Shown here piece by piece: positions 6,113 through 60,102 of a stretch of 64,000 bases of DNA; within the stretch, counting starts at the first letter, position 1, and every line of letters starts with the position of its first letter. The notes below the pieces were generated by a model. That model saw nothing but the letters and a program-made list of their open reading frames with translations. It was not told the DNA's origin and did no database searches. The stretch comes from Prostheceraeus crozeri (Eukaryota > Platyhelminthes > Polycladida > Euryleptidae). The position numbers and the translations under genes were made by a program. The stretch is taken from NCBI GenBank assembly GCA_907163375.1, contig CAJQUW010007759.1, positions 1-64,000 on the forward strand, in the 5' to 3' direction.

Positions 6113-6740
6113 AATAGGATTGGGAGAAACAGGTACACAAGAGCTACTGATCGGTTTATCAAATACATCTTGAAAATTGCTGTAACGTTAGGAACTATGT
6201 TCAAAAGAAGGTCCAAATCCGGTCCTGAGTCATTCAACCGCAAAGATCCAAAGTTGTCTAACACGTTCATACCAATTATTGCATCATAGGATATAGATGA
6301 AGACACGAAGAAAGAAGTTTCGACAGTCTCTCCGCCAATTTCAAGAGGACCAGTGGAGCTTTTGGAAAAGTTAGAGATGCCCATATTTCTATCAAATCCC
6401 TCGGCTGAGTGTGAACAGTTTCTCAGACTACTGTTTAGTTTGTTACGATTCAAAAAATCTTTGGAAATTAACGAAACAGTTGCACCGATGTCTGCTAGCC
6501 CTATCATGTGACAAATGAAGAATCTACATTCTGCAAAACGCAATTTACCTGACTTGCTACTCGTGATGTTCCGAAAAGGTAAAAATGCTGTTCAATTTTC
6601 CACTACTTTTCCCATTATTGTTGAAGGCTCTGTTTGTTCGAGTATTTGGTGCAGATTCTGACATGTGTCGTTTCCTTAGAAAACAATCTCTCATGATATG
6701 GCCTTGTTTTTGACAATAATGACAAATCATTTTGTTAGGT
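6109..6740 (-). pseudogene. Ty3 gag zinc knuckle and protease (copy 1)
   Basis: On the minus strand a CCHC knuckle (CHYCQKQGHIMRDC, about 6728-6690) leads after a frame break into an aspartic-protease-like domain with ADIGATVSLI in place of the usual DTGA. The fold continues to 6109, where it overlaps the RT frame by a few bases in another phase. Its right-arm copy at 42073-42606 keeps the knuckle and protease in one frame, so the break here came after the duplication. Confidence 0.7.
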
Positions 6741-37250: not shown

Positions 37251-38351
37251 TCAATCTGTAAATGAATACAAAGAAGTTTTGGCCCTGACTTCCGCTTTCA
37301 TTTCGCGAGTCTTCTCCGTTCTTACCCTCGCAACAGCATTAGTCTTCATGGACTTTCCTTCTTTATCATTTGTCTGGCTACAGATTTTAGTAGCTTTCCT
37401 ACCAAATTCAATGATAACCTGTTGCATCTGTCTGCTCAAAATAATGAGAATAAGCCAATCAGTCATGAAACTTAATTCCATAAAAATCCCTGCTATTAGC
37501 AAGAAGGCTCCTGTAGGTGAATTAAATGTGTTCGAAGATAGTGGATCGACAAGAAATCCAATTGCGGATGGTAGGGTCGAAATCAAATATATCACATTCA
37601 TCGCAATTAGCGCTATTACTAACCGGATGCGTGTCGGAGGTAGCTTTATATGTTGGGTTACATCTCGCTGATGCCTTTTTAGTAAGAAGGCAACAATGGT
37701 GCCATTGCAAATCAACAAAATAGCAACAGGAATAAAACAATAGATCGTGGCATCCAAAATTTTCAATGTTCTTTCTTGGATTGGATTGTTCCGCACTAAG
37801 CAAGCTCCATACGATGTGTATTCGCAAGTGAGGACTACATATACGATTTCAAATCCAAAGATAACCATAAGCGTCAAAACCAATGACAATACCATTCTTT
37901 TCAGAGTCATGATTTGCTTAAAATTCAAAGGCAAATAAATAGCAATAACTCTCTCTACGGATACTATGCATTGAATATATCCTGGTACTGTTAACAGCGT
38001 TCTTATCGGCATATGGATGATGTAACATAGTGTGATATGGTGATCTTCAACCCATATGTCTAAGCTGTTTCCGAGAAAATCAAGTAATAAATTAATAGCA
38101 AGATGCAAACAATCTACCATCAATAGTGTGCAGATGGCAACGGTGGTTGTCTTAGCTATATTCATGCGCCTCCGATAACATGACGAAATTATAAAAATGA
38201 TGAACGATCCTGAGAGTGATATTGATCTGAGGATAGGAATACCTTTTGCAATAAACTTATAAATGCTATCGATAACATTTTCCCAGTATAAGGATGATGG
38301 TGTCAGTGATGGTAATGTATCCGATGTTGAATTGGATTCAGCAACATCCAT
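37251..38351 (-). CDS. Rhodopsin-class GPCR, orphan (right arm)
   Basis: Intact 366-codon single-exon gene, paralogue of 12514-13617 with about 6% amino-acid changes and one residue fewer in the C-tail. Same seven membrane segments, ERV in place of DRY after TM3, and same N-terminal NST site. Changes cluster in TM3 (IHMPIRTLLTVPG for INMLIGTLLAIPG) and in the loop before TM7 (SSNTFNSPTGAF), positions that often touch ligand, so the two receptors might differ in specificity. Introduction of an arginine into TM3 is unusual and may instead mean relaxed constraint. Confidence 0.85.
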   Translation of the reverse strand: MDVAESNSTSDTLPSLTPSSLYWENVIDSIYKFIAKGIPILRSISLSGSFIIFIISSCYRRRMNIAKTTTVAICTLLMVDCLHLAINLLLDFLGNSLDIWVEDHHITLCYIIHMPIRTLLTVPGYIQCIVSVERVIAIYLPLNFKQIMTLKRMVLSLVLTLMVIFGFEIVYVVLTCEYTSYGACLVRNNPIQERTLKILDATIYCFIPVAILLICNGTIVAFLLKRHQRDVTQHIKLPPTRIRLVIALIAMNVIYLISTLPSAIGFLVDPLSSNTFNSPTGAFLLIAGIFMELSFMTDWLILIILSRQMQQVIIEFGRKATKICSQTNDKEGKSMKTNAVARVRTEKTREMKAEVRAKTSLYSFTD

Positions 38352-42072: not shown

Positions 42073-42606
42073 ATGATTTGTCATTATTGTCAAAAACAAG
42101 GCCATATCATGAGAGATTGTTTTCTAAGGAACCGACACATGTCAGAATCTGCACCAAATACTCGAACAAACAGAGCTTTCAACAATAATGGGAAAAGCAG
42201 TGGAAAATTGAACAGAATTTTTACCATTCGAAACATCACGAGTAGCAAGTCAGGTAAATTGCGTTTTGTAGAATGTAGATTCTTCATTTGTCACATGATA
42301 GGGCTAGCAGACATCGGTGCAACTGTTTCGTTAATTTCCAAAGATTTTTTGAATCGTAACAAACTAAACAGTAGTCTGAGAAACTGTTCACACTCAGCCG
42401 AGGGATTTGATAGAAATATGGGCATCTCTAACTTTTCCAAAAGCTTCACTGGTCCTCTTGAAATTGGCGGAGAGACTGTCGAAACTTCTTTCTTCGTGTC
42501 TTCATCTATATCGTATGATGCAATAATTGGTATGAACGTGTTAGACAACTTTGGATCTTTGCGGTTGAATGACTCAGGACCGGATTTGGACCTTCTTTTG
42601 AACATA
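42073..42606 (+). pseudogene. Ty3 gag knuckle and protease (copy 2, 5' part)
   Basis: Continuous frame with the CCHC knuckle CHYCQKQGHIMRDC, a linker rich in N/S/R and the protease-like domain (GLADIGATVSLI). At 42606 the Polinton is inserted; the pol frame resumes at 60103 with GTTCCTAACGTTAC, the sequence that follows directly in copy 1. Confidence 0.85.
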
Positions 42607-43421
42607 AGTAGTAACCCCGTGCCAAATTCAATTCCAAAATGTGAAATGATGAGTCATCATGCTGACTGAAGGTGATGTGTGAGGGATAGAGTGAGGAAAG
42701 GGCGGGTGTTGGTGGTTTTGGGATGAGAAAGTCCATGTTTCGATATGAAGGAGACCTCGGATGAGAAAACGGAGGCCAGATTCGGACTCTACGTGAAATT
42801 TTGGGTTAGGAAGGATGTTTCCAGCGACATTGGAGAGAGAAAGTTTTGAAGACCTCCCCCCCCCTCGGCAACGATCTTCCAACTTTGGTGTTAGTCGTGC
42901 AATAGCTCATTTGAAAGCTGAGAATGAGAAAAAAGTAGTGGAAAGCTCAGTTTGGACTAATTTTCCTGGGTTTAGGGAGGAAAATGGCAGGAAAACGTCA
43001 GAGTTGGAAAAGGCAGGTGTTGGTGGTTTTGGGATGAGAAAAGTCGTTTCTCGGGCAGAAGGAGGCCTCGGATGGGAAAACGGAGTGCAAATTCGGACGT
43101 TTTGGTCAAAGTTGGGTCTAGGAACTTCTTCCCAACTCAATCGGAGAGAAAAAGTTCTGACCCCCCCCTCGGCAGCGATCTTCTAACTTTGGTTGTAGAC
43201 ATCGTAGAAAGTCGTGCAATAGCTCGTTTGAAAGCTGGGAGTGAGACAAATTCAGTGGAAAACATGGCTTGTTCGTATCTGCCTTCGTCTAGAGGTGAGA
43301 CGTTATTGAAAATTTTGGACCTTGGCGAAAAACGATAGAGTTAGAATGTTTATGAAAATCGCTCTAGCGGGTGAAGCAAGCCTCGGACGGGAAAACAGAG
43401 ACCAGATTTGCAATCAGCGTC
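42607..43421 (+). repeat. Polinton left terminal inverted repeat
   Basis: Pairs with 59147-60096. Internally built of diverged tandem units: GATGRGAAAACGGAG recurs at 42760, 43071, 43386 and 43546, the last lying beyond the end of the inverted repeat. The 13-bp palindrome TGATGAGTCATCA sits 41 bp from the tip (42647-42659). Confidence 0.88.
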
Positions 43422-44209
43422 AAATTCTGCTTCGGCATGGTAAATTTGGAAGTCATCGGAGAGAAAAAATTTTTCATCATTTTTCCGAAAAACGAGTTAG
43501 AATTTTTGCGATGGCTGTGGGCTGTAGAGCCAAAACGAAGCATCAGATGGGAAAATGGAGGGCAGATTCGGATTCAGCGTCAAATTCTATACGATAATGG
43601 TGAATTTCCAGCTCAATCGGAGCACTAGAACCGGAGATAGATGGGTTTTTAGTGTTTGGATGATGGGTATTACGTCATCAGCTGATCGCCACACACTATA
43701 TAAGTGGAAACTCGGCTTGTGGAAATCAGTTCTCCTCCCGACTGGGTTGGGGTAGGTGAACTCCGGAGCTCCGATGATAGCATTGGAAATCTGAAAAACC
43801 GGGTTTCTGTAAGAAACCGACTTAGAAAATTTCATTGCTGAAGTCAGCTAAGGCGTCAGACTTAGAGGTTTGCCAGGAGATGGCCTTTGTCTCCAGGCCA
43901 TAAAAGACTCCAAAACTTTAAAGGCTTGTAACTTTGCTTCTACAAGTCCGTTTGACTTGATTCAAAAAAGGTTCGGTCGCTATTGTCCTGCTCTAAGTGA
44001 TCGACTACTTATAAAATTTCATAAGTAGTGCTAAAAAGTTGAAAAATTTAAACTCGCTAGTTTTGGAGGTTTTCTGGGGTTTTCGACCCTGCTGAAGGCA
44101 ATGAAAGGATTTTTAATGATGTCTGAGCCAGTCTTCTCATGGTATAAGCAGCTTTTTACTGAAAGCGAGCAAGACACGGAGAGTTTTGCTGTAATATTCT
44201 ACTGACAGG
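43422..44209 (+). promoter_or_regulatory. PolB upstream region with CRE-like site and TATA
   Basis: Downstream of the last terminal-repeat unit, TTACGTCATCA (43670-43680, an ATF/CREB-type bZIP site) lies 16 bp before CTATATAAG (43696-43704), a credible promoter for the plus-strand polymerase gene. No ATG-initiated frame joins it to the polymerase frame; either a 5' exon is spliced on or the original N-terminus is lost (stop TAA at 44192). Confidence 0.5.
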
Positions 44210-46948
44210 GTGCTCCTTCGGGACGGCGGACGATGCCGTAGTGATAAGTGTGGCAAGGGAGTGTGTCATAGTTTAGACCGAAACCGGGTTGTCAATCTTC
44301 TCCTAGTGTATAGCGACAACCACCCAGAATGGAATTATTGTGGCATTCCCAAAATTTCTAGATTGTATCGCCACCAACAAAGTTATGATGACAAACATTA
44401 TTACTGTGATCGCTGCACACGGCGCTTTAGGTCAAAACCATATTTTGAACAGCATTACGAGTGGTGCTCTCGGGGTAAACTTCAAATGGAAGTCATGCCC
44501 AAAGATAAATTTTATAGGTATGAGGAAAACGGCAATGAGCTCAGTCCCATATGTACCATCTATGCGGACATTGAATGTTATATTGAACAAGAAGACCTAA
44601 GTCATGAGCCAGCAGCCATTGCCTGCTATGAAGTTTGGCATCCATATTATAGGAATCAAAATCAGATGCATGTGTGGCAAGGCGAGGAGTGCGTTGAAAA
44701 CTTCCTCAACTTTTTAGATAGGAAAGCCCGTTTTCATCAACGCTATGAAACGGAGCTGACTAGAAAACCCATGTGCTTCACAGAAGCCGATAAAATCAAA
44801 TTTGATAAGACCACGTAATGTCCCCGCTGCTGTTCATCCTTTGATGATTAGCAACATAAGAAAGTGAGGGACCATTGCCATCTCAGTGGTAAATTTAGGT
44901 CTGCCTTATGCAGTAAATGCAATATGAAACTTAGGCTCAAACGGCGAACGCTCCCCGTCATCTTTCATAACTTTAAATGTTATGATGCTCACATCATCAT
45001 TCGCCATGGATTCGGTAAAATAAAATCCTGGTCATCCAAAGTGATTGCACAAAGTAAGGAAAAATTTATGTGCATCAATGCTCAAGTGCAAGTCGATAAG
45101 ACGAAGGAGGGGAAGCCTGTCTTCTATGACATAAAGTTTCTAGACAGTTTTCAATTTATGTCTTCTTCCTTAGCCGCGTTGGCTAATAATTTAGAAACAC
45201 TTCCCGTCACTCAACATTTAAAGAAAGACTATCCCAACATAAGTGACAGTCTGATACGACGGAAAGGGGTGTTTCCATGTAGTTATTTTAGTTCAATGGA
45301 TACATTGAAAGAAACATCCCTTCCGTCCATCGATAAATTTAAAAATGATTTGACGGGTGAGGACTGTTCGCTGGATGACTATAGGCATGCAGAGCAAGCA
45401 TGGTTAGAATTTAGGTGTCGCACGTTTGGTGACTACATGCTTGCCTACTTAAAATTAGACGTCTATCTGTTGGCTGACGTGTTTGAGCCTTTTAGGAAAG
45501 TTACATTAGAACAGGACGCCTTAGACCCCGTCCATTTTGTTATTCTGCCAGGTCTGTCCTATCAGTCAGCCTTCAAGATGACGAAAGAGAGCATTCATTT
45601 ACTGCAAGATGCAGAAATGTACACGTTATTTGAACGTGGTATTAGGGGTGGCTTGACATTTGTTAACAAACATGTTGTCAACAGCACCCAAGACATAGGA
45701 TCGACCACGCATTTAATGTACATAGACCAAAATAATTTGTATGGGAGTGCACTCTCCAAGCCTTTGCCACAGTCTGACCCTCAATGGGTAGAGCCCCATG
45801 ACATTGAACACTTCTCCAATCCAGCACACATTATGGCACTGGGAGATGAGGCCGACATAGGTTATTTATTTGAAGTCGACCCCATCTATCCAGACTGTAT
45901 TAAGAATAGGACCGTTGATTTTCCTCTCGCACCCGAATCTGGCATAGTCAGTCCAGATATGTTCTCTCCCTTTATGGAAGAACACAATAAGCAGTATGAG
46001 GCGGAAAATGACTTTAAGTATAAAGCCACTAGGAAGTTGTTGCTCACCCAATTGAACAAGCAGCATTACATCGTGCACTATTCCATCCTCAAATTCTATC
46101 TAGGTATGGGGATGCAACTTGATAAAGTCCATCGCGCTATCCAGTTTAGGCAGAAGCCCTTTCTAAAACCGTATATAGAATTTAATAGCAAGAAACGGGC
46201 TGAATCCAAGAATCCTTTCGAAAAGGACTTCTTTAAATTTAAGAATAATGCCCTCTTTGGTAAAACCATGGAGGATGTAAGAAAGCGCATGGACTATCGC
46301 ATCGTAACTGATCCGGAAGCGAGTATCAAGTTATGTCGCTCGCCGTTGTTTTGCCACCATGATGTCATTTCCGAAGACATCACTGGTTTTAAAATGTTAA
46401 AATCTAAAGTAGAACTTTGTATGCCCATTTATGTCGGTCAAGCTGTCTTGGATCACCCCAAGTTAGAAATGTATAAGTTATTTTACCACACTTTTTAGAC
46501 ATGTCCACTTCTCCAACGTGCGGAATTAGTAGGATGTGATACAGACAGCTTCTTCCTAGCTTTGACAACCACGAGCCAAGTCAAGCAGGAAGATATTTTA
46601 AAATATTTAGCACCCAAGTTTGATAGTTCCAACTATCCCACTGACCATCCGCTTTACTCTACCTCAAATACAGCGAAGCTTGGCTGCTTCAAGGATGAGT
46701 GTACCGGCAAACAGATAGAGGAGATGATCTTGCTTCGCCCCAAGATGTACTCCATGAAGCTAAAATCCTCAGAGCTTTCTATAAAACGGGCGAAAGGCAT
46801 CTCGAAGTCAATCGTTAGAAAAATGACACATAGGGACTATGAAGATGCCTTAGATTCTCTTAAAATTAAAAAAATAGAAATGACCATTTTAAAATCACAG
46901 TCGCATCAAGTCAGAACGACGTTTAGGAAACGAGGTCTCTCAGCTTAG
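44210..46948 (+). pseudogene. Protein-primed family B DNA polymerase, three stops
   Basis: One 913-codon frame without indels, interrupted by TAA 44816, TAG 44849 and TAG 46496. Order: zinc-finger-like start (YYCDRCTRRF...H...C); exonuclease motifs I (YADIE), II (FHNFKCYD) and III (YLKLD); a zinc/HNH-like C..C...VRDHCH block; polymerase motifs A (YIDQNNLYG), B (KFKNNALFGKT), C (CDTDS, just after the third stop) and the KMY motif near the end. All catalytic residues are present. This is the PolB of Polintons and adintoviruses, which copies the element from a terminal-protein primer. The first codon here is GTG and the real N-terminus is not visible. Point nonsense mutations only, so inactivation is recent unless suppressed. 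Confidence 0.9.
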
Positions 46949-47430
46949 GAAGACAAGCGATGCTGGATGAGTCCTAACCACTCATTACCGTACGGCCATA
47001 CCGACACTCATCTACCTCCACCCGAGAGACAGAAACTTTCTCTTCTTCCGTCCGGCGATGTCTGATGATGAATGCTTCCTCTCTGTTGTGGTTGATGTTT
47101 TGCTTTTTTGCTCCATGGCGTTTTATATGGGATGTTGTGAGTGAGTGCCTTGTGACGTACGTCCAACTCCTGATCACTTCATATCATGTCTTACATATCA
47201 ACTGGTTTTTCCCGACGTTGTTTTCTCCCTGCACATGAGTGACTTTGTTTTCTCCGGTGATGTGAGATGTAAAAACTTTGTTTTCTGCTACCATCAGTAT
47301 TAACTGCATGTGGCTGTGATGAAAATCGGTTGTGTTGATGAATAACATATCATGTACATACAGTGTCGTTTTTCTTTTGACATAAAGATGGGATTCTCAC
47401 TCATTAGACAGAAGTAAAAGTTTTAATCAT
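46949..47430. other. Spacer between PolB and satellite
   Basis: No convincing gene; a 67-codon minus-strand frame (47177-46974) has low-complexity composition. From about 47220 the words TGACTTTGTTTTCTCC recur, then the satellite starts. Confidence 0.5.
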
Positions 47431-50400
47431 TTTGTAAGATGGGTGGGGTTAGAAATAAAGTTGTTGATTGTAAGTTAAAAATAAAGTGATCACCATGTCG
47501 CTGTTTGTAAGATAGGTGAAATATAAATGAAGTTAGAATTACTTCACTGTTTGTAAAGTTTGAAATAAAGTTGATGTTTGTAAAGTTAGAAATAAAGTTG
47601 ATGAATGTAAAGTTTGAATTAATGTTAGAATCATCTCACTGTTTGCAAGATAGGTAAAGTATAAAATAAATTATAACCATATCACTGTTTGTAAGATAGG
47701 TGAAATGTAAATGAAGTTAGAATCACTTCACTGTTTGTAAAGTTAGAAATAAAGTTGACTGTTTGTAAAGTTAGAAATAAAGTTGATGAATGTAAAGTTT
47801 GAATTAATGTTAGAATCATCTCACTGTTTGCAAGATAGGTAAAGTATAAAATAAATTATAACCATATCACTGTTTGTAAGATAGGAGAAATGTAAATGAA
47901 GTTAGAATCACTTCACTGTTTGTAAAGTTAGAAATAAAGTTGACTGTTTGTAAAGTTAGAAATAAAGTTGTTGATTGTAAAGTTAGAAATAAAGTTATAA
48001 CCATATCACTGTTTGTAAGATAGGTGAAATGTAAATGAAGTTAGAATCACTTCACTGTTTGTAAAGTTAGAAATAAAGTTGACGTTTGTAAAGTTAGAAA
48101 TAAAGTTGATGAATATAAAGTTAGAATTAATGTTAGAATCATCTCACTGTTTGCAAGATAGGTAAAGTATAAAATAAATTATAACCATATCACTGTTTGT
48201 AAGATAGGTGAAATGTAAATGAAGTTAGAATCACTTCACTGTTTGTAAAGTTTGAAATAAAGTTGACGTTTGTAAAGTTAGAAATAAAGTTGTTGAATGT
48301 GAAGTTTGAATTAATGTTAGAATCATCTCACTGTTTGCAAGATAGGTAAAGTATAAAATAAATTATAACCATATCACTGTTTGTAAGATAGGTGAAATGT
48401 AAATGAAGTTAGAATCACTTCACTGTTTGTAAAGTTAGAAATAACGTTCACGTTTGTAAAGTTAGAAATAAAGTTGATGATTGTAAAGTTAAAAATAAAG
48501 TTATCACCATATCACTGTTTGCAAGATGGGTGAAATGTAAATGAAGTTAGAATCACTTCACTGTTTGTAAAGTTTGAAATAAAATTGACGTTTGTAAAGT
48601 TAGAAATAAAGTTGATGAATGTAAAGTTTGAATTAATGTTAGAATCATCTCACTGTTTGCAAGATAGGTAAAGTATAAAATAAATTATAACCATATCACT
48701 GTTTGTAAGATAGGAGAAATGTAAATGAAGTTAGAATCACTTCACTGTTTGTAAAGTTAGAAATAAAGTTGACTGTTTGTAAAGTTAGAAATAAAGTTGT
48801 TGATTGTAAAGTTAGAAATAAAGTTATAACCATATCACTGTTTGTAAGATAGGTGAAATGTAAATGAAGTTAGAATCACTTCACTGTTTGTAAAGTTAGA
48901 AATAAAGTTGATGAATATAAAGTTAGAATTAATGTTAGAATCATCTCACTGTTTGCAAGATAGGTAAAGTATAAAATAAATTATAACTATATCACTGTTT
49001 GTAAGATAGGTGAAATGTAAATGAAGTTAGAATCACTTCACTGTTTGTAAAGTTAGAAATAACGTTCACGTTTGTAAAGTTAGAAATAAAGTTGATGATT
49101 GTAAAGTTAAAAATAAAGTTATCACCATATCACTGTTTGCAAGATGGGTGAAATGTAAATGAAGTCAGAATCACTTCACTGTTTGTAAAGTTAGATATAA
49201 AGTTGATGAATCTGAAAATTGAATTAATGTTCGAATCATCTCACTGTTTGCAAGATAGGTAAAGTATAAAATAAATTATAACCATATCACTGTTTGTAGG
49301 ATAGGTGAAATGTAAATGAAGTTAGAATCACTTCACTGTTTGTAAAGTTAGAAATAAAGTTGATGAATGTAAAGTTTGAATTAATGTTAGAATCATCTCA
49401 CTGTTTGCAAGATAGGTAAGGTATAAAATAAATTATAACCATATCACTGTTTGTAAGATAGGTGAAATGTAAATGAAGTTAGAATCACTTCACTGTTTGT
49501 AAAGTTAGAAATAAAGTTGACGTTTGTAAAGTTAGAAATAAAGTTGATGAATGTAAAGTTTGAATTAATGTTAGAATCATCTCACTGTTTGGAAGATAAG
49601 TAAAGTATAAAATAAATTATAACCATATCACTGTTTGTAAGATAGGAGAAATGTAAATGAAGTTAGAATCACTTCACTGTTTGTAAAGTTAGAAATAAAG
49701 TTGACTGTTTGTAAAGTTAGAAATAAAGTTGTTGATTGTAAAGTTAGAAATAAAGTTATAACCATATCACTGTTTGTAAGATAGGTGAAATATAAATGAA
49801 GTTAGAATCACTTCACTGTTTGTAAAGTTTGAAATAAAATTGACGTTTGTAAAGTTAGAAATAAAGTTGATGAATGTAAAGTTTGAATTAATGTTAGAAT
49901 CATCTCACTGTTTGCAAGATAGGTAAAGTATAAAATAAATTATAACCATATCACTGTTTGTAAGATAGGAGAAATGTAAATGAAGTTAGAATCACTTCAC
50001 TGTTTGTAAAGTTAGAAATAAAGTTGACTGTTTATAAAGTTAGAAATAAAGTTGTTGATTGTAAAGTTAGAAATAAAGTTATAGCGATATCACTGTTTGT
50101 AAGATAGGTGAAATGTAAATGAAGTTAGAATCACTTCACTGTTTGTAAAGTTAGAAATAAAGTTGACGTTTGTAAAGTTAGAAATAAAGTTGATGAATAT
50201 AAAGTTAGAATTAATGTTAGAATCATCTCACTGTTTGCAAGATAGGTAAAGTATAAAATAAATTATAACCATATCACTGTTTGTAAGATAGGTGAAATGT
50301 AAATGAAGTTAGAATCACTTCACTGTTTGTAAAGTTTGAAATAAAGTTGACGTTTGTAAAGTTAGAAATAAAGTTGTTGAATGTGAAGTTTGAATTAATG

Positions 50401-53400
50401 TTAGAATCATCTCACTGTTTGCAAGATAGGTAAAGTATAAAATAAATTATAACCATATCACTGTTTGTAAGATAGGTGAAATGTAAATGAAGTTAGAATC
50501 ACTTCACTGTTTGTAAAGTTTGAAATAACGTTCACGTTTGTAAAGTTAGAAATAAAGTTGATGATTGTAAAGTTAAAAATAAAGTTATCACCATATCACT
50601 GTTTGCAAGATGGGTGAAATGTAAATGAAGTCAGAATCACTTCACTGTTTGTAAAGTTAGATATAAAGTTGATGAATGTGAAAATTGAATTAATGTTCGA
50701 ATCATCTCACTGTTTGCAAGATAGGTAAAGTATAAAATAAATTATAACCATATCACTGTTTGTAGGATAGGTGAAATGTAAATGAAGTTAGAATCACTTC
50801 ACTGTTTGTAAAATTAGAAATAAAGTTGATGAATGTAAAGTTTGAATTAATGTTAGAATCATCTCACTGTTTGCAAGATAGGTAAGGTATAAAATAAATT
50901 ATAACCATATCACTGTTTGTAAGATAGGTGAAATGTAAATGAAGTTAGAATCACTTCACTGTTTGTAAAGTTAGAAATAAAGTTGACGTTTGCAAAGTTA
51001 GAAATAAAGTTGATGAATATAAAGTTTGAATTAATGTTGGAATCATCTCACTGTTTGCAAGATAGGTAAAGTATAAAATAAATTATAACCATATCACCGT
51101 TTGTAAGATAGGTGAAATGTAAATGAAGTTAGAATCACTTCACTGTTTGTAAAGTTTGAAATAAAGTTGACGTTTGTAAAGTTAGGAATATAGTTGATGA
51201 ATGTAAAGTTTGAATTAATGTTAGAATCATCTCACTGTTTGCAAGATAGGTAAAGTATAAAATAAATTATAACCATATCACTGTTTGTAAGATAGGAGAA
51301 ATGTAAATGAAGTTAGAATCACTTCACTGTTTGTAAAGTTAGAAATAAAGTTGACTGTTTGTAAAGTTAGAAATAAAGTTGATGATTGTAAAGTTAAAAA
51401 TAAAGTTATCACCATATCACTGTTTGTAAGATAGGTGAAATGTAAATGAAGTTAGAATCACTTCGCTGTTTGTAAAGTTAGAAATAAAGTTGATGAATGT
51501 GAAGTTTGAATTAATGTTAGAATCATCTCACTGTTTGCAAGATAGGTAAAGTATAAAATAAATTATAACCATATCGCTGTTTGTAGGATAGGTGAAATGT
51601 AAATGAAGTTAGAATCACTTCACTGTTTGTAAAGTTAGAAATAACGTTCACGTTTGTAAAGTTAGAAATAAAGTTGATGATTGTAAAGTTAAAAATAAAG
51701 TTATCACCATATCACTGTTTGCAAGATGGGTGAAATGTAAATGAAGTCAGAATCACTTCACTGTTTGTAAAGTTAGATATAAAGTTGATGAATGTGAAAA
51801 TTGAATTAATGTTCGAATCATCTCACTGTTTGCAAGATAGGTAAAGTATAAAATAAATTATAACCATATCACTGTTTGTAGGATAGGTGAAATGTAAATG
51901 AAGTTAGAATCACTTCACTGTTTGTAAAATTAGAAATAAAGTTGATGAATGTAAAGTTTGAATTAATGTTAGAATCATCTCACTGTTTGCAAGATAGGTA
52001 AGGTATAAAATAAATTATAACCATATCACTGTTTGTAAGATAGGTGAAATGTAAATGAAGTTAGAATCACTTCACTGTTTGTAAAGTTAGAAATAAAGTT
52101 GACGTTTGCAAAGTTAGAAATAAAGTTGATGAATATAAAGTTTGAATTAATGTTGGAATCATCTCACTGTTTGCAAGATAGGTAAAGTATAAAATAAATT
52201 ATAACCATATCACTGTTTGTAAGATAGGTGAAATGTAAATGAAGTTAGAATCACTTCACTGTTTGTAAAGTTTGAAATAAAGTTGACGTTTGTAAAGTTA
52301 GGAATATAGTTGATGAATGTAAAGTTTGAATTAATGTTAGAATCATCTCACTGTTTGCAAGATAGGTAAAGTATAAAATAAATTATAACCATATCACTGT
52401 TTGTAAGATAGGAGAAATGTAAATGAAGTTAGAATCACTTCACTTTTTGTAAAGTTAGAAATAAAGTTGACTGTTTGTAAAGTTAGAAATAAAGTTGATG
52501 ATTGTAAAGTTAAAAATAAAGTTATCACCATATCACTGTTTGTAAGATAGGTGAAATGTAAATGAAGTTAGAATCACTTCGCTGTTTGTAAAGTTAGAAA
52601 TAAAGTTGATGAATGTAAAGTTTGAATTAATGTTAGAATCATCTCACTGTTTGCAAGATAAGTAAAGTATAAAATAAATTATAACCATATCGCTGTTTGT
52701 AGGATAGGTGAAATGTAAATGAAGTTAGAATCACTTCACTGTTTGTAAAGTTAGAAATAACGTTCACGTTTGTAAAGTTAGAAATAAAGTTGATGATTGT
52801 AAAGTTAAAAATAATGTTATCACCATATCACTGTTTGGAAGATAGGTGAAATGTAAATGAAGTTAGAATCACTTCGCTGTTTGTAAAGTTAGAAATAAAG
52901 TTGATGAATGTGAAGTTTGAATTAATGTTAGAATCATCTCACTGTTTGCAAGATAGGTAAAGTATAAAATAAATTATAACCATATCACTGTTTGTAGGAT
53001 AGGTGAAATGTAAATGAAGTTAGAATCACTTCACTGTTTGTAAAGTTAGAAATAAAGTTGACGTTTGTAAAGTTAGAAATAAAGTTGATGAATATAAAGT
53101 TTGAATTAATGTTGGAATCATCTCACTGTTTGCAAGATAGGTAAAGTATAAAATAAATTATAACCATATCACTGTTTGTAAGATAGGTGAAATGTAAATG
53201 AAGTTAGAATCACTTCACTGTTTGTAAAGTTAGAAATAAAGTTGACGTTTGTAAAGTTAGAAATAAAGTTGTTGAATGTAAAGTTTGAATTAATGTTAGA
53301 ATCATCTCACTGTTTGCAAGATAGGTAAAGTATAAAATAAAGTTATAACCATATCACCGTTTGTAAGATAGGTGAAATGTAAATGAAGTTAGAATCACTT

Positions 53401-53690
53401 CACTGTTTGTAAAGTTAGAAATAAAGTTGATGATTGTAAAGTTAGAAATAAAGTTATACCCATGTCACTCTTTGTAAGATAGGTGAAATGTAAATGATGT
53501 AAGAATGACTTCACTTTTTGTAAAGTTAGAAATATAGTTGATGATTGTAAAGTTTGAATTAATGTTAAAATCATTTCACTGTTTGTATAGTTTGCAAGAT
53601 AGGTGAAATATAAAATGAAGTGATAAGTATTTCACTATTTGCAAGATAGGTAAAGTATAAAGTAAAGTCAAAACCATGTTTGAGTTTGTA
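47430..53690 (+). repeat. 6.3-kb satellite array inside Polinton
   Basis: Tandem array built from short related modules: GTTTGTAAAGTTAGAAATAA-type (about 27 bp), ATGTAAAGTTTGAATTAATG-type (about 36 bp), and two ~46-bp modules with GATAGGTGAAATGTAAATGA and GATAGGTAAAGTATAAAATA, all separated by CACTGTTTG words. They combine into higher-order units of about 140-195 bp repeated dozens of times with high identity. Almost every module contains AATAAA on the plus strand. There is no open frame. The array makes up more than a third of the element and lies between the convergent plus and minus gene sets. Confidence 0.95.
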
Positions 53691-54061
53691 AGCTAACATC
53701 CTCACCAACGAATGTGACATCATGGCAATTTCTTCGGCTTAGGAAACATCAACCACTTTGCTGACTCATGTCTATAAATTCCTCTGACTCATGAAGGGGT
53801 AAGGCGCCAGTTATACGAATCTAATCAGTCTTGTTCAACCTTTTCACCGACACATGTGTGGGAGTTATTTATCAGACAAAGCGATGGCGCCTCACGTCAG
53901 ACAGCGTGACCTTTTCACCAACAGGTGTGTGTGGACATCATTTCATGTCTATAAATAGAGCTGACTCATCATAAAGCGAAGAACCTTGTTGATGACCTGC
54001 TCACCGACAAGAGTGTGGGCGATAGTTCATTGCGATGACTCATTAAAAACACATCATGTGA
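53691..54061. promoter_or_regulatory. Repeated TATA and TGACTCA cassettes
   Basis: CATGTCTATAAAT with TGACTCA occurs twice: TGACTCA 53762-53768, TATAAATT near 53772, TGACTCA 53785-53791; and TATAAATAG 53950-53958 with TGACTCA 53962-53968. A further TGACTCA is at 54036-54042. TTTTCACCGACACATGTGTG / TTTTCACCAACAGGTGTGTG is repeated between them. No gene follows on the plus strand, so these look like decayed or duplicated promoter cassettes. Confidence 0.5.
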
Positions 54062-54601
54062 TTAACACGATTCTATCAACTGTGACTCATACAGATAACC
54101 CATTAAAGATTTAACAATGTCAGCTACTTTACTGATATCACGTAAACCAGTCATGATACAATGTCCATTGTGAAACACTGCAATATGTACAGGATGCCAC
54201 TTCCGAATCAGAGCAGCAGGAAAGAGTTCAATTTCATAAAATATACAATGATTACTGGTTTTAATGTTGGCTAGATTCACTAACATCTTCAATTGAACAG
54301 ACACTACTATATTCTTCAATGTCAGGGGACTGAGGCTGAGATGAGGCATGAGTGTTCGCATTTTCTTGACGACTTCGTAACACATGGACTGCATCACGAA
54401 ATGAGAAAGGTTTCCTAGGACTTGGATCTTGCCGCAGCGAAAGATTTGAAGATTTCGACCGTTGCTCATGCGAATGACGAACATTTGCGGACGACCGCGA
54501 TGATAGACTGAATCGGGTAGATGGGTATGCAACTGTTCTAAATCGATGTCTCTTCTGAGATTCATTTCGCGCATGGCGTTGATGATCCGGATGGGGAGCA
54601 T
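54062..54601 (-). CDS. TATA-binding-protein-like protein
   Basis: 179 intact codons from ATG, the length of a TBP core. Two repeats: residues about 5-85 and 95-175. Repeat 1 has MFVIRM and LQIFRCGKIQVLG; repeat 2 has KNIVVSVQLKMLVNLANI, YEIELFPAALIRKW and IAVFHNGHCIMTG, matching the TBP pattern NIVxSxxL...YEPELFPGLIYRM...LLIFxSGKxxxTG. The four phenylalanines that kink DNA in TBP have equivalents at F41, F54, F127 and F143. A TATAAAAGG box lies about 35 bp upstream (54630-54640 on the minus strand). Expected role: nuclear, directing transcription of element genes. TBP is not part of the standard Polinton gene set known to me. Call rests on motif pattern and symmetry, not on a search. Confidence 0.7.
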   Translation of the reverse strand: MLPIRIINAMREMNLRRDIDLEQLHTHLPDSVYHRGRPQMFVIRMSNGRNLQIFRCGKIQVLGNLSHFVMQSMCYEVVKKMRTLMPHLSLSPLTLKNIVVSVQLKMLVNLANIKTSNHCIFYEIELFPAALIRKWHPVHIAVFHNGHCIMTGLRDISKVADIVKSLMGYLYESQLIESC

Positions 54602-54890
54602 GACTCACAAATGACATGAGGATGGAGTGAACTTCCCTTTTATACTTTTCCCATGAGGGTTTTGGAATCACAATGTAGCAGTGATCATTATGTAGAATCA
54701 TCTCTTGAATGCGAATAAATACAATGCCGTCTCCTACGTTAATGATACGGCAAGACTGGGATAGGATTGCGCGATGTAACCTTCGTAGATGAGAGCGTTC
54801 TAGAGTTATCTGAAGTTGACGTTTCGTATCATGAAATGTAACACACTGACTTTTCCATGATACTTGGAGCCATGCTGATAATTTCCACAT
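54261..54890 (-). CDS. Unknown protein overlapping the TBP-like gene
   Basis: 209 codons from ATG 54890. The first ~100 residues look folded: KSQCVTFHDTKRQLQITLER, then GIVFIRIQEMILHNDHCYIV and IPKPSWEKYKREVHSIL. The alternation of beta strands with a (K)xxIxL...xxLxxxI helix recalls PC4-type ssDNA-binding coactivators, but weakly. The second half is Ser/Arg/His-rich and overlaps the TBP-like frame over 340 bp in another phase, so the C-terminus may be disordered or simply a shadow. The TBP-like gene's TATA box lies inside this frame. Confidence 0.5.
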   Translation of the reverse strand: MWKLSAWLQVSWKSQCVTFHDTKRQLQITLERSHLRRLHRAILSQSCRIINVGDGIVFIRIQEMILHNDHCYIVIPKPSWEKYKREVHSILMSFVSHAPHPDHQRHARNESQKRHRFRTVAYPSTRFSLSSRSSANVRHSHEQRSKSSNLSLRQDPSPRKPFSFRDAVHVLRSRQENANTHASSQPQSPDIEEYSSVCSIEDVSESSQH

Positions 54891-55042
54891 GATTAAAACC
54901 TGAGTGAAGAAGGGTATGCCTAAGAAAGAAGGAGAGACTCATGTTCATGTGTGGCATGGTGAGTGTACATTTTCTTGATACGGTGGCCGTTAGGCCGTGG
55001 TCTCATAAAGACCGATGGTGCGTTCTCAGTGTGTGGAGAGTG

Positions 55043-55642
55043 TTACTGTAGTTGATCATCATCAACATGGACATCATTTTTAAAGGTGATGGAGACAAGA
55101 TGGGGATTCAACGTAAACAACCTTCCGTCCCTGCGCGGACCCATGTAGATGGTTTGAATTTTAATTTCGAAGGAGTAGAATCCTTTTCCCAAAATGGGGA
55201 GTGGTTTGCAATTGAGTAAGTCGAATTCGCTGTCCTCCTTTTCATGGATGATGAGACAGTGTCTATCCATATGCACATACATGTATCGTCTTTCCATGAT
55301 GGGAACTTGTGGCCGCTTCCCATTGTGTCGAACAATTTCTTTGGGAATGGTGAGATTTTCTTTCAGGAATGTTTCAAGAGTATTGAATTGTAACCGTGTC
55401 CAATAGTCTAACGGCACACACACGGCCAGTCCATACTTTGCTGACATAATCTTTAGATAATCTATCCGTTGACTTGGAGTTTTTATGGTTACGGCTTCTC
55501 CATGATGAGTTATCTTTTGATTGAAAGCATTTTTACCCGATGCTAAAGTAAGGGAGTCCAGTGTACCCAGTGCGAGAGCAGAGGCGTTGATGGCTTCGAG
55601 CAACTGCATGGTTAGCGCAAGGACGGAAATGATTGCCATGCT
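55043..55642 (-). CDS. Polinton family-Y protein, copy 2
   Basis: Start set at ATG 55642 because a TATA-like TTATAAAACGG lies just before it (about 55655); a longer reading from 55678 would include the TATA. 199 codons. Hydrophobic N-terminus (MAIISVLALTMQLLEAI), a middle with YGLAVCVPLDYWTRLQFNTL, and a beta-rich C-terminal half with YMYVHMDRHCLIIHE and GFYSFEIKIQTIYMGPRRDG. The last block matches GFYSFHIELPAVYVGPHQSD in copy 1 (57366-58094), so the genes are ancient duplicates. Function unknown; an OB-like or capsid-like beta fold is possible. Confidence 0.6.
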   Translation of the reverse strand, partial: SMAIISVLALTMQLLEAINASALALGTLDSLTLASGKNAFNQKITHHGEAVTIKTPSQRIDYLKIMSAKYGLAVCVPLDYWTRLQFNTLETFLKENLTIPKEIVRHNGKRPQVPIMERRYMYVHMDRHCLIIHEKEDSEFDLLNCKPLPILGKGFYSFEIKIQTIYMGPRRDGRLFTLNPHLVSITFKNDVHVDDDQLQ

Positions 55643-55854
55643 CTCAGTCGTCCGTTTTATAAGCAGACCTAGCTCCAATCACATGCGTTTCCCTTTTCTC
55701 ATTTTCCCTGTCTTTGTTATGTGACAAAGAGTTATCGTACGTGAACTATTGACTGCGTGGGTGGAAACCTTCCCTCCTACAAAGTCGTTCTTGTCCTCAC
55801 AAAGACTTGAGTGACACGCCCCTTCTAGCGAACAAAGACGCATTCATTTATCTA

Positions 55855-55985
55855 ACAAAGAGCCTGATAGTAATGCACAAAGCGCAATGACTCATGTTGT
55901 GACACCCCCTTTTCTCGAACACAGACGCATTCAGTTATCTAACAAAGAGCCTGATAGTAATGCACAAAGCGCAATGACTCATGTT
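55855..55985 (-). repeat. Tandem ~87-bp regulatory duplication with TGAGTCA
   Basis: TATCTAACAAAGAGCCTGAT...GCGCAATGACTCATGTTG occurs twice in a row; TGACTCA lies at 55888-55894 and 55975-55981. Placed upstream of the family-Y gene at 55642 on the minus strand, it looks like a duplicated enhancer-type module. Confidence 0.65.
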
Positions 55986-56035
55986 GCTCTATACACCATT
56001 ACAAAATACTCAGTGAAAAGAAATCTTTATTGCAT

Positions 56036-56458
56036 CTACACAATGTGTCGACCATCAAACAAAGTCATGGATGTAAACACACTTAGTTGAATCATGATAT
56101 GTTTAACAACGTATGCATTTCCTTCCAACGTCTCAGCTATTCTCTCCATAATTTTCTCCATATGACGACCATAAAATTGATCACTAAGAGTAATCCATTC
56201 TGAGCAATAAGATCCAAAACGAAGTGGTTTTTGTAAATCTTTCAACTCTATATAAGCAACGAGTCTACCCTTTACATCTTGAGGTTGTAAACTCTCCATC
56301 AATCTTTTGAAGAGAGGAAGGCTTTCAGTGAGCACTACTTTCATATCATTCATCTTCATTTTAAATGTAAGTTTCCAATCTTGTAAAAATCCATCGAATC
56401 CTTGTTGATCAAGTGTCAAATGACACATGTGGTTACTTAAGGTACGATGCGCCATCAT
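56036..56458 (-). CDS. Polinton family-X protein, copy 2
   Basis: 140 codons from ATG 56458 (upstream codon of the longer frame is GTG). Blocks: FDGFLQDWKLTFKMKMNDM, PLFKRLMESLQPQDVKGRLV, a beta segment (AYIELKD...LRFGSY), FYGRHMEKIMERI and VVKHIMIQLSVF. The same blocks occur in 58674-59078 (copy 1), about 35-40% alike by eye. Predicted mixed alpha/beta, no known motif. Function unknown. Confidence 0.55.
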   Translation of the reverse strand: MMAHRTLSNHMCHLTLDQQGFDGFLQDWKLTFKMKMNDMKVVLTESLPLFKRLMESLQPQDVKGRLVAYIELKDLQKPLRFGSYCSEWITLSDQFYGRHMEKIMERIAETLEGNAYVVKHIMIQLSVFTSMTLFDGRHIV

Positions 56459-56628
56459 AAACGTTGTAACTATAGATTTCACATTGCTTCAATGACTTCC
56501 ACTATGAATAAAACAGAAATAACAATCATGTTCCACTGCAAGTTTATTCAACACCAGACAAAATTCACAAGTACAGAATACACTTCATAAAATGATCATC
56601 ATTCATTCACAAGGAGTAAAAACATGTT

Positions 56629-57394
56629 TTACATAGACCCATGCTGTTGACAATAATATAGATACAGTTCATAAACGTCATAGAGACTACAATGCCAGCG
56701 TGAAGAGAGTTTTGCAATGTAGGTAGCTTTATTTCTAGTATTACAATGAGATGGTGGTCTGTACAGGTGATGTCTCTCACCGAAACATATTGCCATGTCA
56801 AAAATCATTTCATCTCTAAACTTCTTTTGATCACAATGCATATGATAGTTTTGTCTTACACGATCTACCCAACATGGTAAATATAAATTATCAATGTGCA
56901 ACTGAAGTGTTGTTGCTTCTCGTTCAGAATCATTTCCTAATATTTTAAAAATATGAAAACCTGACAGCCACCGTTTGAAATCACTTATCAAATACGTTTC
57001 ATTTGCAAATCCAATATGAATCAAAATAGAAGGATCAAGTCCATGCACATGACGTCGTGACCATTCGTCTTTGTGTGGAGGACAGTAGGCAAATCTATTA
57101 TATACACTAACAACAGTTTGATCACTTTCTCTCATTGCAATAGCACTCAATTCCTGCATGGGTGTTCCCTCACTGTCTATGAAGATGACAACCTACAATA
57201 TCAAAAAGACTTCATTACAAAATAATACATTGAGCAGGAACTTTACAAGGATGTCTGTCCTTTACATAACAAAAGATAAATACAACATGATTACAATGTT
57301 TTATTTGAACATAACGCGCAAGGCCGCGTTTTCCACATTCACTACATACTAACTGATTACAATACTTAAGATTTCTCTTTGGTGGTAGCACCAT
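56629..57394 (-). CDS. DEDDh 3'-5' exonuclease-like protein, probable intron
   Basis: Exon 2 (57192-56629) codes for hydrophobic strand VVIFIDSEGTPMQELSAIAM with the D-x-E of exonuclease motif I, HIFKILGNDSERE (motif II aspartate) and WHCSLYDVYEL, an H-x4-D motif III. This is the DEDDh order of DnaQ/ISG20-type exonucleases. A stop precedes VVIF in the genome, but TTGTAG acceptor at 57193 and GTAAAG donor at 57265 bound a 73-bp stretch whose removal keeps frame with an upstream frame from ATG 57394, which encodes a small zinc cluster (CNQLVCSEC...KHCNH). Exon 1 overlaps the end of the family-Y gene by 29 bp. Without splicing, ATG 57159 would make a protein missing motif I. Role: nuclease in replication or RNA decay, undecided. 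Confidence 0.6.
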
Positions 57395-58094
57395 CTTTCT
57401 TTGATGTGCGACGACGTTTAGGTTTAGTGACAGGTTCTTGACACTCTTTGACACAAGAATCAATGACTTTCTCAATGTGATGAAGTCCTGTTAACTCAGG
57501 TTGATGATGAATTTGAGCAATGCGCAAATTGAGAGAAATCAAATTATCGTCAGATTGATGAGGTCCCACATAAACAGCAGGCAACTCAATATGAAAGGAA
57601 TAAAAGCCTGCACCTAACGATGACAATTCTGTTTCAACTGATTGTTCAACTGTCACTCCTGAAGTGACTTTACAATACTTGCTTTGTAAAATATAGCAGC
57701 GAGTACCGCGATACAAAGGTTTATAATAAGAAGTTTTCTTTTCTGGCCACAACTGTAATAGTTCAGTAGAAATAAGAGCCTTTTGCCTCACAAAGTCTTC
57801 TAAAATGTCAAGCTGCTGATGCAACCAATTATGAATAGGGATACTCAGGTTTTGACCGCAACGATTTACTTGCGTATCCACTTTTGGTAAGTATACCGCC
57901 GGCGTTTGAAGATAGAGTCGAACACCGTTGTAGCGCACTTGTTGTTTGTAGGTAGAATAGCCGTGAATTACCTTTTCAATTTTCGGATTCCACAACTCGA
58001 GATGTTGATGATTCAGTGATGCAGCAGTTGGAGTAGGATTCATGGCCATGGCAGTCTGTAACGAAAGAATACCGCTAAGTACATTCATGATCAT
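57366..58094 (-). CDS. Polinton family-Y protein, copy 1
   Basis: 242 codons from ATG. Moderately hydrophobic N-terminus (MIMNVLSGILSLQTAMAM), VRYNGVRLYLQTPAVYLP, a helical region (IHNWLHQQLDILEDFVRQ), then GFYSFHIELPAVYVGPHQSD and SLNLRIAQI, closing with a basic tail KPKRRRTSKKDG. The order beta body, helical insert, (Y/F)xxIxxxxxYxG(P/A), SLxxxxxQ(I/L), basic tail parallels the B2 protein at 33893-34555, though identity is low. Candidate DNA-binding or capsid protein. Confidence 0.6.
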   Translation of the reverse strand: MIMNVLSGILSLQTAMAMNPTPTAASLNHQHLELWNPKIEKVIHGYSTYKQQVRYNGVRLYLQTPAVYLPKVDTQVNRCGQNLSIPIHNWLHQQLDILEDFVRQKALISTELLQLWPEKKTSYYKPLYRGTRCYILQSKYCKVTSGVTVEQSVETELSSLGAGFYSFHIELPAVYVGPHQSDDNLISLNLRIAQIHHQPELTGLHHIEKVIDSCVKECQEPVTKPKRRRTSKKDGATTKEKS

Positions 58095-58172
58095 CAGAGA
58101 AAAGAAAATTGTTAGCTTAGCAGTGACATATGAGGTGGCCCTTAAGAGGACCTTTTGGAGCGTTCACAGGAT

Positions 58173-58337
58173 TTAATGCTTATCACCAAAGTCTAAGTCT
58201 TCGTCATCGTCCAGTAAATTAAATGTGTTGGGCTTAGGACCCGAATTGAGTTTCAATTCCCTAAAAGACTTAAACGTAAAGCGTCTAGGTGGTGGAGGCG
58301 GTGGCGATGGTTCAACAAAATAAGCTTGTACAATCAT
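58173..58337 (-). CDS. Small proline-rich acidic protein
   Basis: 54 codons from ATG. A polyproline stretch (PSPPPPPP) is followed by RRFTFKSFRELKLN and an acidic-hydrophobic end FNLLDDDEDLDFGD. Such acidic tails are typical of transactivation domains or of peptides docking on DNA-binding partners. A TATA-like TTATAAAAGCAG at about 58530, CCAAT (58570) and TGAGTCA (58636-58642) lie upstream on the same strand. Short, so only moderately sure it is translated. Confidence 0.4.
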   Translation of the reverse strand: MIVQAYFVEPSPPPPPPRRFTFKSFRELKLNSGPKPNTFNLLDDDEDLDFGDKH

Positions 58338-58529
58338 CGGTCACACACTCTCCTGCGTCTCTCTTCTAAAATGCTGGTAAGGTTTAGGCCAGACAGTCAT
58401 GACACTCACTTGTAAATTTTCAAACAGGATTGATCAGAAAAAGTTGAGAGGGGAGAATGGCTTCAGCAAGTCACACACGCTTTCCAAGTCAAGAGAATGA
58501 AATGAAGAGAAAATGGGGAGACGTCTGCT

Positions 58530-58642
58530 TTTATAATCTCCTGCGAATCCACATTTGACACTATGTGAGCCAATCAGAGACCTCCGTTTCTCCCCTGACT
58601 TCGTTGCGTCAGGGAAAAGGAGGCACGCGGACGTCTGACTCA
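58530..58642 (-). promoter_or_regulatory. bZIP site, CCAAT and TATA box
   Basis: On the minus strand TGAGTCAGACGTC (58630-58642), TGATTGGCTCAC (inverted CCAAT, about 58570) and TTATAAAAGCAGACGTC (about 58530) are spaced like the promoters of elements B1 and B2. ACGTC is present at both ends. Confidence 0.55.
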
Positions 58643-58673
58643 TGAATGCTTTTCCCAAATCTTGTAGTCGAAT

Positions 58674-59078
58674 CTAGTTTAACACATTGAGTTGAATATG
58701 AATGTGTTTTATGTGACATAAGAGCAAGTTGGATCCATGCTCATGAAATGAATCTAGTCGAGATGCAATTTTTGCCATGTGTCGCTGATAGAAATCTTTG
58801 GGATCATGTATCGTCTCTGCAGAATAGGATGCAAAATGAAACACTACACGTTCACCTGCATGTTCATCAGTCACTTTCTCAAATTCAATCTCTGCAACTA
58901 ATCGTCCTTTCACATCTTTATTCATCAAACTGTCCATCAGCTGTTGGAAAACGAAGTAACCTTTAGCGATAGCAATTTCTAAGTCTGCCTTTTCATGATG
59001 AAAGGAGATGATGTAGTCCCTAATCACACCACGAAGACTTTGTCGATGAAAACGTAGTGAACAAAATTCATTCGTAAA
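58674..59078 (-). CDS. Polinton family-X protein, copy 1, start unclear
   Basis: Open frame from a stop at about 59080 to 58674; homology with copy 2 starts at EFCSLRFHRQSLRGVIRDYI. No ATG is in frame there (first candidate codon GTG 59027), so the start is lost, frameshifted or spliced. Blocks: FQQLMDSLMNKDVKGRLVAE, FHFASYSAETI, FYQRHMAKIASRL and CHIKHIHIQLNVL. First gene of the minus-strand block, just inside the right terminal repeat. Function unknown. Confidence 0.5.
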   Translation of the reverse strand, partial: FTNEFCSLRFHRQSLRGVIRDYIISFHHEKADLEIAIAKGYFVFQQLMDSLMNKDVKGRLVAEIEFEKVTDEHAGERVVFHFASYSAETIHDPKDFYQRHMAKIASRLDSFHEHGSNLLLCHIKHIHIQLNVLN

Positions 59079-59146
59079 CTTCTGTCATCTTTCTTCCTTT
59101 CACTTCGGAGACATAGCATGAATGACATTCAGGTGTAACATGGCAC

Positions 59147-60096
59147 GCTGATTCCAAATCTGGTCTCTGTTTTCCCGTCCGAGGCTTGCTTCACCCGCTA
59201 GAGCGATTTTCATAAACATTCTAACTCTGTCGTTTTTCGCCAAGGTCCAAAATTTTCAATAACGTCTCACCTCTAGACGAAGGCAGATACGAACAAGCCA
59301 TGTTTTTCACTGAATTTGTCTCACTCCCAGCTTTCAAACGAGCTATTGCACGACTTTCTACGATGTCTACAACCAAAGTTAGAAGATCGCTGCCAAGGGG
59401 GGGGGTCAGAACTTTTTCTCTCCGATTGAGTTGGGAAGAAGTTCCTAGACCCAACTTTGACCAAAACGTCCGAATTTGCACTCCGTTTTCCCATCCGAGG
59501 CCTCCTTCTGCCCGAGAAACGACTTTTCTCATCCCAAAACCACCAACACCTGCCTTTTCCAACTCTGACGTTTTCCTGCCATTTTCCTCCCTAAACCCAG
59601 GAAAATTAGTCCAAACTGAGCTTTCCACTACATTTTTCTCATTCTCAGCTTTCAAATGAGCTATTGCACGACTAACACCAAAGTTGGAAGATCGTTGCCG
59701 AGGGGGGGGGGGAGGTCTTCAAAACTTTTTCTCTCCAATGTCGCTGGAAACATCCTTCCTAACCCAAAATTTCACGTAGAGTCCGAATCTGGCCTCCGTT
59801 TTCTCATCCGAGGTCTCCTTCATGTCGAAACATGGACTTTCTCATCCTAAAACCACCAACACCCGCCCTTTCCTCACTCTATCCCTCACACATCACCTTC
59901 CTTCCCACCCCTTGCCTCAGCACTCCTCCTACGTTCCTTCCTTCCAGAGGTGGGGGACCCGTTTCTTCCTCTCGGACCCATCCTTTCATCACATCCTTGA
60001 GGCTCTCCCTCACATTCCTTCCAGAGGGGGGGCTGAGTCAGCATGATGACTCAGCATTTCACATTTTGGAATTGAATTTGGCACGGGGTTACTACT
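59147..60096 (-). repeat. Polinton right terminal inverted repeat
   Basis: Complement of 42607-43421, with an extra ~135 bp at about 59900-60035 containing two copies of CCTTCCAGAGG-GGGGG. Near the tip GCTGAGTCAGCATGATGACTC carries two bZIP/Maf-type sites. Long G runs (59398-59405, 59702-59710) are shared with the left copy. Confidence 0.88.
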
Positions 60097-60102
60097 AACA
60101 TA

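Follow-up and report, generated by a model that had tools for sequence, protein, structure and literature searches.

A predicted TATA-binding protein homologue encoded within a Maverick/Polinton-type element of the flatworm Prostheceraeus crozeri

The TBP gene and the element that holds it

The first 64,000 nucleotides of contig CAJQUW010007759.1 of the polyclad flatworm Prostheceraeus crozeri (assembly GCA_907163375.1), referred to here as the window, contain a Maverick/Polinton-type element and, within it on the minus strand, a gene whose predicted product is a strongly diverged homologue of the TATA-binding protein (TBP). The gene is an uninterrupted open reading frame (ORF) of 179 codons that begins with ATG and holds the entire TBP core in a single open frame (Table 1). 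An earlier note on this DNA had described an intact 179-codon gene for a Polinton-encoded TBP homologue with two TBP-like repeats, and in each of these respects it is borne out. Its lower boundary at 54062 also stands, but the upper boundary it gave, 54640, falls inside the TATA box, and the upper limit of the gene is 54601.

PF00352 is the only Pfam family matched by the 179-residue protein at E-values up to 10 (72.4 bits, E = 2.8e-20, cut-off 22.9), and two separate stretches of the protein pass it, indicating two tandem TBP repeats. A significant score in such a search, proposed in the earlier note as a check, is thus present. A full-length TBP profile of 176 positions is matched without a break over positions 1–175. 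The leave-out profile, made from 27 other TBPs with the window protein excluded, gives 76.6 bits versus 7.3 for the top of 1000 shuffles, and has no second match at E up to 10 among the 243 ORF segments of at least 60 codons in the window. A PDB search at E up to 10 returned 35 distinct sequences (top 3eik_A, 1.9e-10), 34 of them named as TBP, TFIID or fusions containing TBP; the remaining one, 4wzs_D, is named just ECU04_1440. All 10 matching NCBIfam models for archaeal TBP (PRK00394 set) stay under their curated cut-offs (best 64 bits versus 181, best E 1.2e-17), which is expected since the protein is a distant relative. PHROGs gave a single weak match of unassigned function (E = 0.01) and phage records none at E up to 1.

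The gene lies within an element that has precise ends, a target-site duplication (TSD) and an empty-site copy. The ends carry the motif AGTAGT//ACTACT, the 6-bp TSD is AACATA, and the terminal inverted repeats (TIRs) are 98–100% alike in aligned stretches, excluding an indel of ∼ 0.14 kb. Both flanks are parts of one retroelement, which we take to be of Gypsy type, with a protease match on the left and reverse transcriptase and RNase H matches on the right; an inverted duplicate of this retroelement (protease, reverse transcriptase) is continuous at the same point, near 6187–6201. A host gene beside a transposon was considered and rejected, the TBP gene sitting between the target duplications of the element. 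When the window was scanned for like ends with 6-bp duplications 8–40 kb apart, nothing came up beyond this element and one match inside the large inverted duplication described below.

Intact vertebrate Mavericks are described in passages of PMC8097293 as having (AGT)2//(ACT)2 ends, a 6-bp TSD, a length of 12.7–24.6 kb (mean 16.9), TIRs of 46–1,447 bp and genes arranged in two convergent blocks, the accessory ones close to the ends. We assign the element to the Maverick/Polinton type because its ends, its 17.5 kb length and its layout of convergent blocks agree with these, and its TIR length is in range. Unlike animal Mavericks/Polintons, this copy yielded no gene for an integrase, ATPase or capsid protein, has a 6.2-kb array at its middle and carries a TBP. 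The element type named in the earlier note is therefore right, but its title omits that this copy is incomplete and that its presumed polymerase gene is broken.

Table 1. Features of the TBP-carrying element and of its target site (positions in the window).
Feature	Position	Strand	Remarks
Uninterrupted retroelement target (empty site)	6187..6201	-	Inverted duplicate; repeat pairs I4 and I10 meet there
Target-site duplication AACATA, left copy	42601..42606		Direct repeat flanking the element
Whole Maverick/Polinton-type element	42607..60096		17,490 bp; ends 5'-AGTAGT...ACTACT-3'
Left terminal inverted repeat	42607..43420	+	∼ 0.8 kb
Maverick-type DNA polymerase B remains (presumed, see text)	44195..46945	+	Pieces 44195–44815, 44852–46495 and 46499–46945; frame change and stop
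Nested tandem repeat array	47392..53587		Mid-element; units of ∼ 27, 46, 111, 138, 157, 184, 295 and 323 bp
Predicted TBP homologue, 179 aa	54062..54601	-	Repeat 1 ∼ residues 4–88, repeat 2 ∼ residues 94–172
p209	54261..54890	-	Overlaps the TBP ORF in another frame; without TBP similarity
TATA box TATAAAAG	54637..54644	-	43 nt ahead of the TBP ATG
p211	55043..55678	-	Paralogue of p242 (E = 1e-11, 23%)
p148	56036..56482	-	Paralogue of p136 (E = 1e-21, 32%)
p176	56629..57159	-	No profile match above cut-off
p242	57366..58094	-	20% to neighbouring Polinton-like protein at 33893–34555 (E = 7e-5)
p136	58677..59084	-	Paralogue of p148
Right terminal inverted repeat	59145..60096	-	∼ 0.95 kb
Target-site duplication AACATA, right copy	60097..60102		Direct repeat flanking the element

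Fold and conserved residues of the predicted protein

The structure predicted for the 179-residue protein is a TBP-like saddle, as the earlier note had anticipated, although the alignment of TBPs used as input favours that fold. Over the aligned fold the protein is 18–24% identical to TBP structures (19% each to human, 1cdw, and yeast, 1ytb). In a viral fold library the matches include TBPs of giant viruses and a B263R homologue; several rows, the best one included, are nameless. The alignments by VIA-align cover only chains ranked by Foldseek, and non-appearance of a chain there carries no weight.

Residues were compared in an alignment of the protein with the 27 other TBPs, namely 26 archaeal loci picked from 80 and one IMG/VR contig. 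We take four aligned phenylalanine columns to be the positions that, in TBP structures, intercalate into and kink DNA. F54, F127 and F143 each stand in a column that is Phe in 27/27 of the others; with three of the four intercalating phenylalanines, the protein is not a canonical four-phenylalanine TBP. These three had been named correctly in the earlier note; its fourth, F41, does not stand in such a column. Both conserved asparagines, N8 and N97, are kept, and the repeat 2 pattern that the note had read from the sequence is there (Y122-E-I-E-L-F-P128, G146, T151-G152). Where at least 85% of the other TBPs agree, repeat 2 retains 18/30 columns and repeat 1 retains 12/27.

Two glutamates on the TFIIB side, E123 and E125, fall within the YExELFP motif. 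The TFIIA-side residues, on the mapping that we assume, differ in the window protein. Counting from the Phe, E125 equals E188 of yeast TBP, and E123 would equal E186, which we take to be the other TFIIB contact. Two glutamates of yeast TBP, there numbered E184 and E188, are called critical for TFIIB binding in passages of PMC12529657.

Promoter motifs, possible role and alternatives

A TATA box, TATAAAAG, precedes the TBP gene, and from its position transcription would start ∼ 13 nt before the ATG. Boxes so placed are rare in the element: outside the array, and counting both strands, TATAAAA begins 30–60 nt upstream of 4/586 ATGs (< 1%). We favour, on balance, the reading that the TBP gene is cargo of a Maverick/Polinton and that its product serves the element as a promoter-recognition factor of its own. 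The protein would bind TATA boxes in front of element genes, its own gene among them, and would kink the DNA with three phenylalanines; the better-kept repeat 2 would recruit host TFIIB and RNA polymerase II, and the diverged repeat 1 may let the protein escape host TFIIA, TBP-associated factors (TAFs) and other TBP regulators. We infer these steps of DNA binding, host TFIIB use, autoregulation and escape from host control. The TFIIB would be that of the host, no TFIIB gene and no RNA polymerase subunit having been found in the element ORFs scanned. A promoter role is favoured because of the residues kept in repeat 2, the TATA box of the gene itself and the precedent of viral TBPs.

With cellular TBPs of eukaryotes and archaea the protein shares the (predicted) two-repeat saddle, a core of 179 residues, three of four intercalating phenylalanines, N8/N97 and the TFIIB-side glutamates; in contrast to them it is encoded by a transposon, is highly diverged in sequence, above all in repeat 1, and has a proline, Pro38, where the first Phe would stand. 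TBPs with three phenylalanines are reported for African swine fever virus (ASFV; B263R), Plasmodium, Toxoplasma, Cryptosporidium and Perkinsus in passages of PMC5825884. TBPs on mobile DNA genomes are likewise found in large DNA viruses: giant viruses, ASFV (B263R), the nimavirus whose wsv303 is listed as a TATA-binding protein in part of PMC10871703, and Kaposi's sarcoma-associated herpesvirus (KSHV), whose ORF24 is a TBP mimic. These genomes are far larger than the element, some having genes for an RNA polymerase of their own. KSHV ORF24, according to passages of PMC12529657, is without the TFIIB glutamates, whereas the window protein has them.

Mavericks presumably depend on the host for their transcription. 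Neither TATA nor TBP occurs in the main text of PMC8097293, PMC11071308, PMC10328495 or PMC10120064, and a TBP in a Polinton is not seen in passages of PMC10675990, PMC11464507, PMC12085832 and PMC12220804; parts of PMC10675990 mention TBPs for elements with mirusvirus-like capsid genes. Viral TBPs are already known, and for a TBP in a Maverick/Polinton we saw no precedent in the open-licence full-text literature, which was partly examined and leaves most subscription journals outside its scope.

Several observations weigh against the promoter reading. The first intercalating column, Phe in 27/27 of the other TBPs, is occupied by Pro38. F41, which the earlier note had placed there, sits three columns further on, where the others have 25 Leu, 1 Val and 1 Ala. 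We disfavour F41 as a shifted intercalating residue, since the register is set by Arg44 and F54 and needs a single deletion, as it does in repeat 2; an insertion paired with a deletion around F41 may give an alternative register. In addition, a Thr and a Val of repeat 1, which face DNA in TBP, are replaced here by Leu62 and Met10, and with Pro38 these substitutions leave canonical DNA bending not assured. TATA boxes are also fewer than claimed before. According to the earlier note many genes of the element and its neighbours have clear ones, and the small set of ORFs checked lends this little support: a TATAWA box lies within 70 nt of the ATG in 2/7 minus-strand element ORFs, namely TBP and p211 (22 nt before the first ATG of p211, 52 nt before the second), and in the other 5/7 checked there is none; those of the neighbouring Polinton-like region lie scattered.

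The state of the copy has to be weighed in the same way. We take the three broken pieces at 44195–46945 to be DNA polymerase B from their motifs (YADIE, HNFKCYD, DQNNLYG, LFGKTMED, DTDS). The pieces match no DNA polymerase profile and nothing in the PDB; the region holds an Endonuclease_7 zinc module below the Pfam cut-off (E = 7.5e-4), which is weak in PHROGs too. No integrase was matched with Pfam in 10/13 element ORFs of at least 100 aa (the three within TIRs left out), nor does any ORF segment of at least 60 codons in the element match the integrase of the neighbouring element; the copy is accordingly filed as an incomplete Maverick-type element. Capsid, packaging ATPase and protease genes gave no match in the element ORFs scanned, although several element ORFs are unassigned and capsid proteins diverge fast. 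With its presumed polymerase broken and no integrase, ATPase or capsid gene turning up, this copy is probably inactive. The records scanned, which are viral, prokaryotic, phage and plasmid, gave no second copy. With two or three lesions per ∼ 2.75 kb of polymerase, the estimated chance that 540 bp stay unharmed is ∼ 0.55–0.7, so that the intact frame is weak evidence of selection. The lost Phe, the diverged repeat 1, the few boxes and the damaged copy make full TBP function doubtful, at least in this copy.

Much of this would also suit a relic, a TBP gene acquired long ago and now unused, whose frame happens to be still open while the copy decays, a possibility that we consider unlikely but not slight. 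It would account for the broken polymerase, the core genes not found, the single copy seen, the survival of a short frame and the loss in repeat 1 of 15/27 conserved columns, one kinking Phe among them. A relic, however, fits less well with a fully open frame behind a consensus TATA box, with the retention of residues of known function, mainly in repeat 2, and with base composition. Where p209 overlaps the gene, G+C by codon position is 0.50/0.29/0.57 in the TBP frame, a coding-like pattern with the second position lowest, and 0.57/0.50/0.29 in the p209 frame; in the half of the TBP gene outside the overlap it is 0.46/0.34/0.28. The rarity of TATA boxes at element gene starts, and TFIIB-facing residues kept while repeat 1 diverged, would suit a decoy that acts against the host by sequestering TFIIB or occupying host TATA boxes and does not drive element genes. 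We regard such interference as quite improbable: the gene carries a consensus TATA box of its own, and a role at viral promoters is ascribed to other TBPs of viruses (KSHV ORF24, passages of PMC12529657; the TBP of CpV-BQ1, passages of PMC12085832).

The TBP fold is a generic DNA-bending platform, and replication initiation proteins (4cwe, 4cwc) are among the weak fold matches; use of the protein at the element ends or origin, instead of at promoters, nevertheless seems to us highly improbable. A retroposed copy of the host's TBP mRNA, inserted into the element, as might be suggested by several retroelements in the window and by a core in one open frame, is hardly credible. Animal TBP cores are very similar to one another, and the window protein shows only the 19% identity to human and yeast TBP given above. 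An mRNA copy would not bring an upstream TATA box, and the retroposition would have to far predate the insertion of the element, whose TIRs are ∼ 98% identical.

If the element's own promoter-recognition factor is what the gene encodes, small integrating DNA elements can bring such a factor with them, like giant viruses, nimaviruses and some herpesviruses, and a portable one would exist in 17.5 kb. A natural two-repeat TBP with one half better kept would be useful to separate DNA kinking from TFIIB recruitment, and the element offers a direct test of TFIID-independent reading of element promoters. Going further, and only tentatively, an animal Maverick lineage may long have carried a TBP and fired its own TATA promoters with host TFIIB and RNA polymerase II outside TFIID control, perhaps as a Maverick link to the TBPs of larger DNA viruses; we hold this wider scenario possible rather than likely.

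Other contents of the element and its surroundings

The minus-strand order after the array is TBP, p209, p211, p148, p176, p242, p136. p209 was tried as an N-terminal part of the TBP or as a third repeat and rejected, with hhalign giving nothing and only the TBP frame showing a coding-like composition where the two overlap. The structure prediction for p242 (pLDDT, predicted local distance difference test, 37) has no usable fold, and p176 is possibly a DEDD-type exonuclease. Several element ORFs start directly after acceptor-like ...TAG or ...CAG sites, and some element genes may accordingly have introns. The array consists of 6.2 kb of higher-order repeats, ∼ 27-bp subunits being arranged in units of 184, 295, 323 and 452 bp, and occupies the position where core Maverick genes are expected.

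The motif TGASTCA, presumably an AP-1/GCN4-type site, has 12 occurrences in the element, not counting the array (mean 2.8, maximum 7 in 300 simulations), and 11 outside the element, where 8.9 are expected. Five sites lie in 53762–54083, and another shares one base with the start codon of the TBP gene. Immediately downstream of this gene, at 53740–54060, two degenerate repeats each have TATAAAT beside TGACTCA, oriented to the plus strand, with no notable plus-strand ORF after them.

When viral contigs were scanned with one protein at a time (the TBP, a polymerase piece, integrase, ATPase and p176), no relatives appeared, and the exact element-end pattern has 0 occurrences in the sequence collections scanned. 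Searches of the viral, prokaryotic, phage and plasmid collections with the TBP alignment gave one contig only. An IMG/VR contig (L001:5983-6531) has a TBP gene of 182 aa adjoining an ORF of 1151 aa, which we take to be a restriction-modification-like enzyme, and another ORF, presumably helicase-like; this TBP is perhaps carried by an archaeal virus or provirus.

The element stands in a large inverted duplication (4453–14015/36853–61848) with ungapped stretches 94–99% alike, most of them 97–99%, which contains both the presumed Gypsy-type retroelement and a gene for a rhodopsin-type receptor. Of its two arms, only the right one is interrupted by the TBP element; the left arm has ∼ 2 kb of its own near 7.5–9.5 kb. 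The two genes for rhodopsin-type seven-helix receptors, at 12514–13617 (+) and 37251–38351 (-), each consist of a single open frame (Pfam 7tm_1, 5.7e-13 and 4.6e-9), and their proteins are 92% identical.

A second Polinton-like element is present as facing, diverged copies at 26419–29722 (+) and 36431–30676 (-), with a RING protein, p237/p207 and a P-loop protein (AAA_14, 2.8e-5, below cut-off). The longer copy in this region (26.4–36.4 kb) has an integrase and a chromodomain (rve 6.2e-12, Chromo 1.5e-9), and its ORF at 30673–31107 is possibly penton-like. A transposase fragment at 16032–16946 (+), presumably pogo-like, matches Pfam DDE_1 (1.2e-8) and, below cut-off, the Psq helix-turn-helix (0.0088). 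Together with the receptor genes and the chromodomain integrase, this fragment suggests an animal as the probable host. The reverse transcriptase at 23668–25276 (+), which we take to be LINE-like, matches RVT_1 (2.1e-19) and has a weak match to zf-RVT (0.0086) after it.
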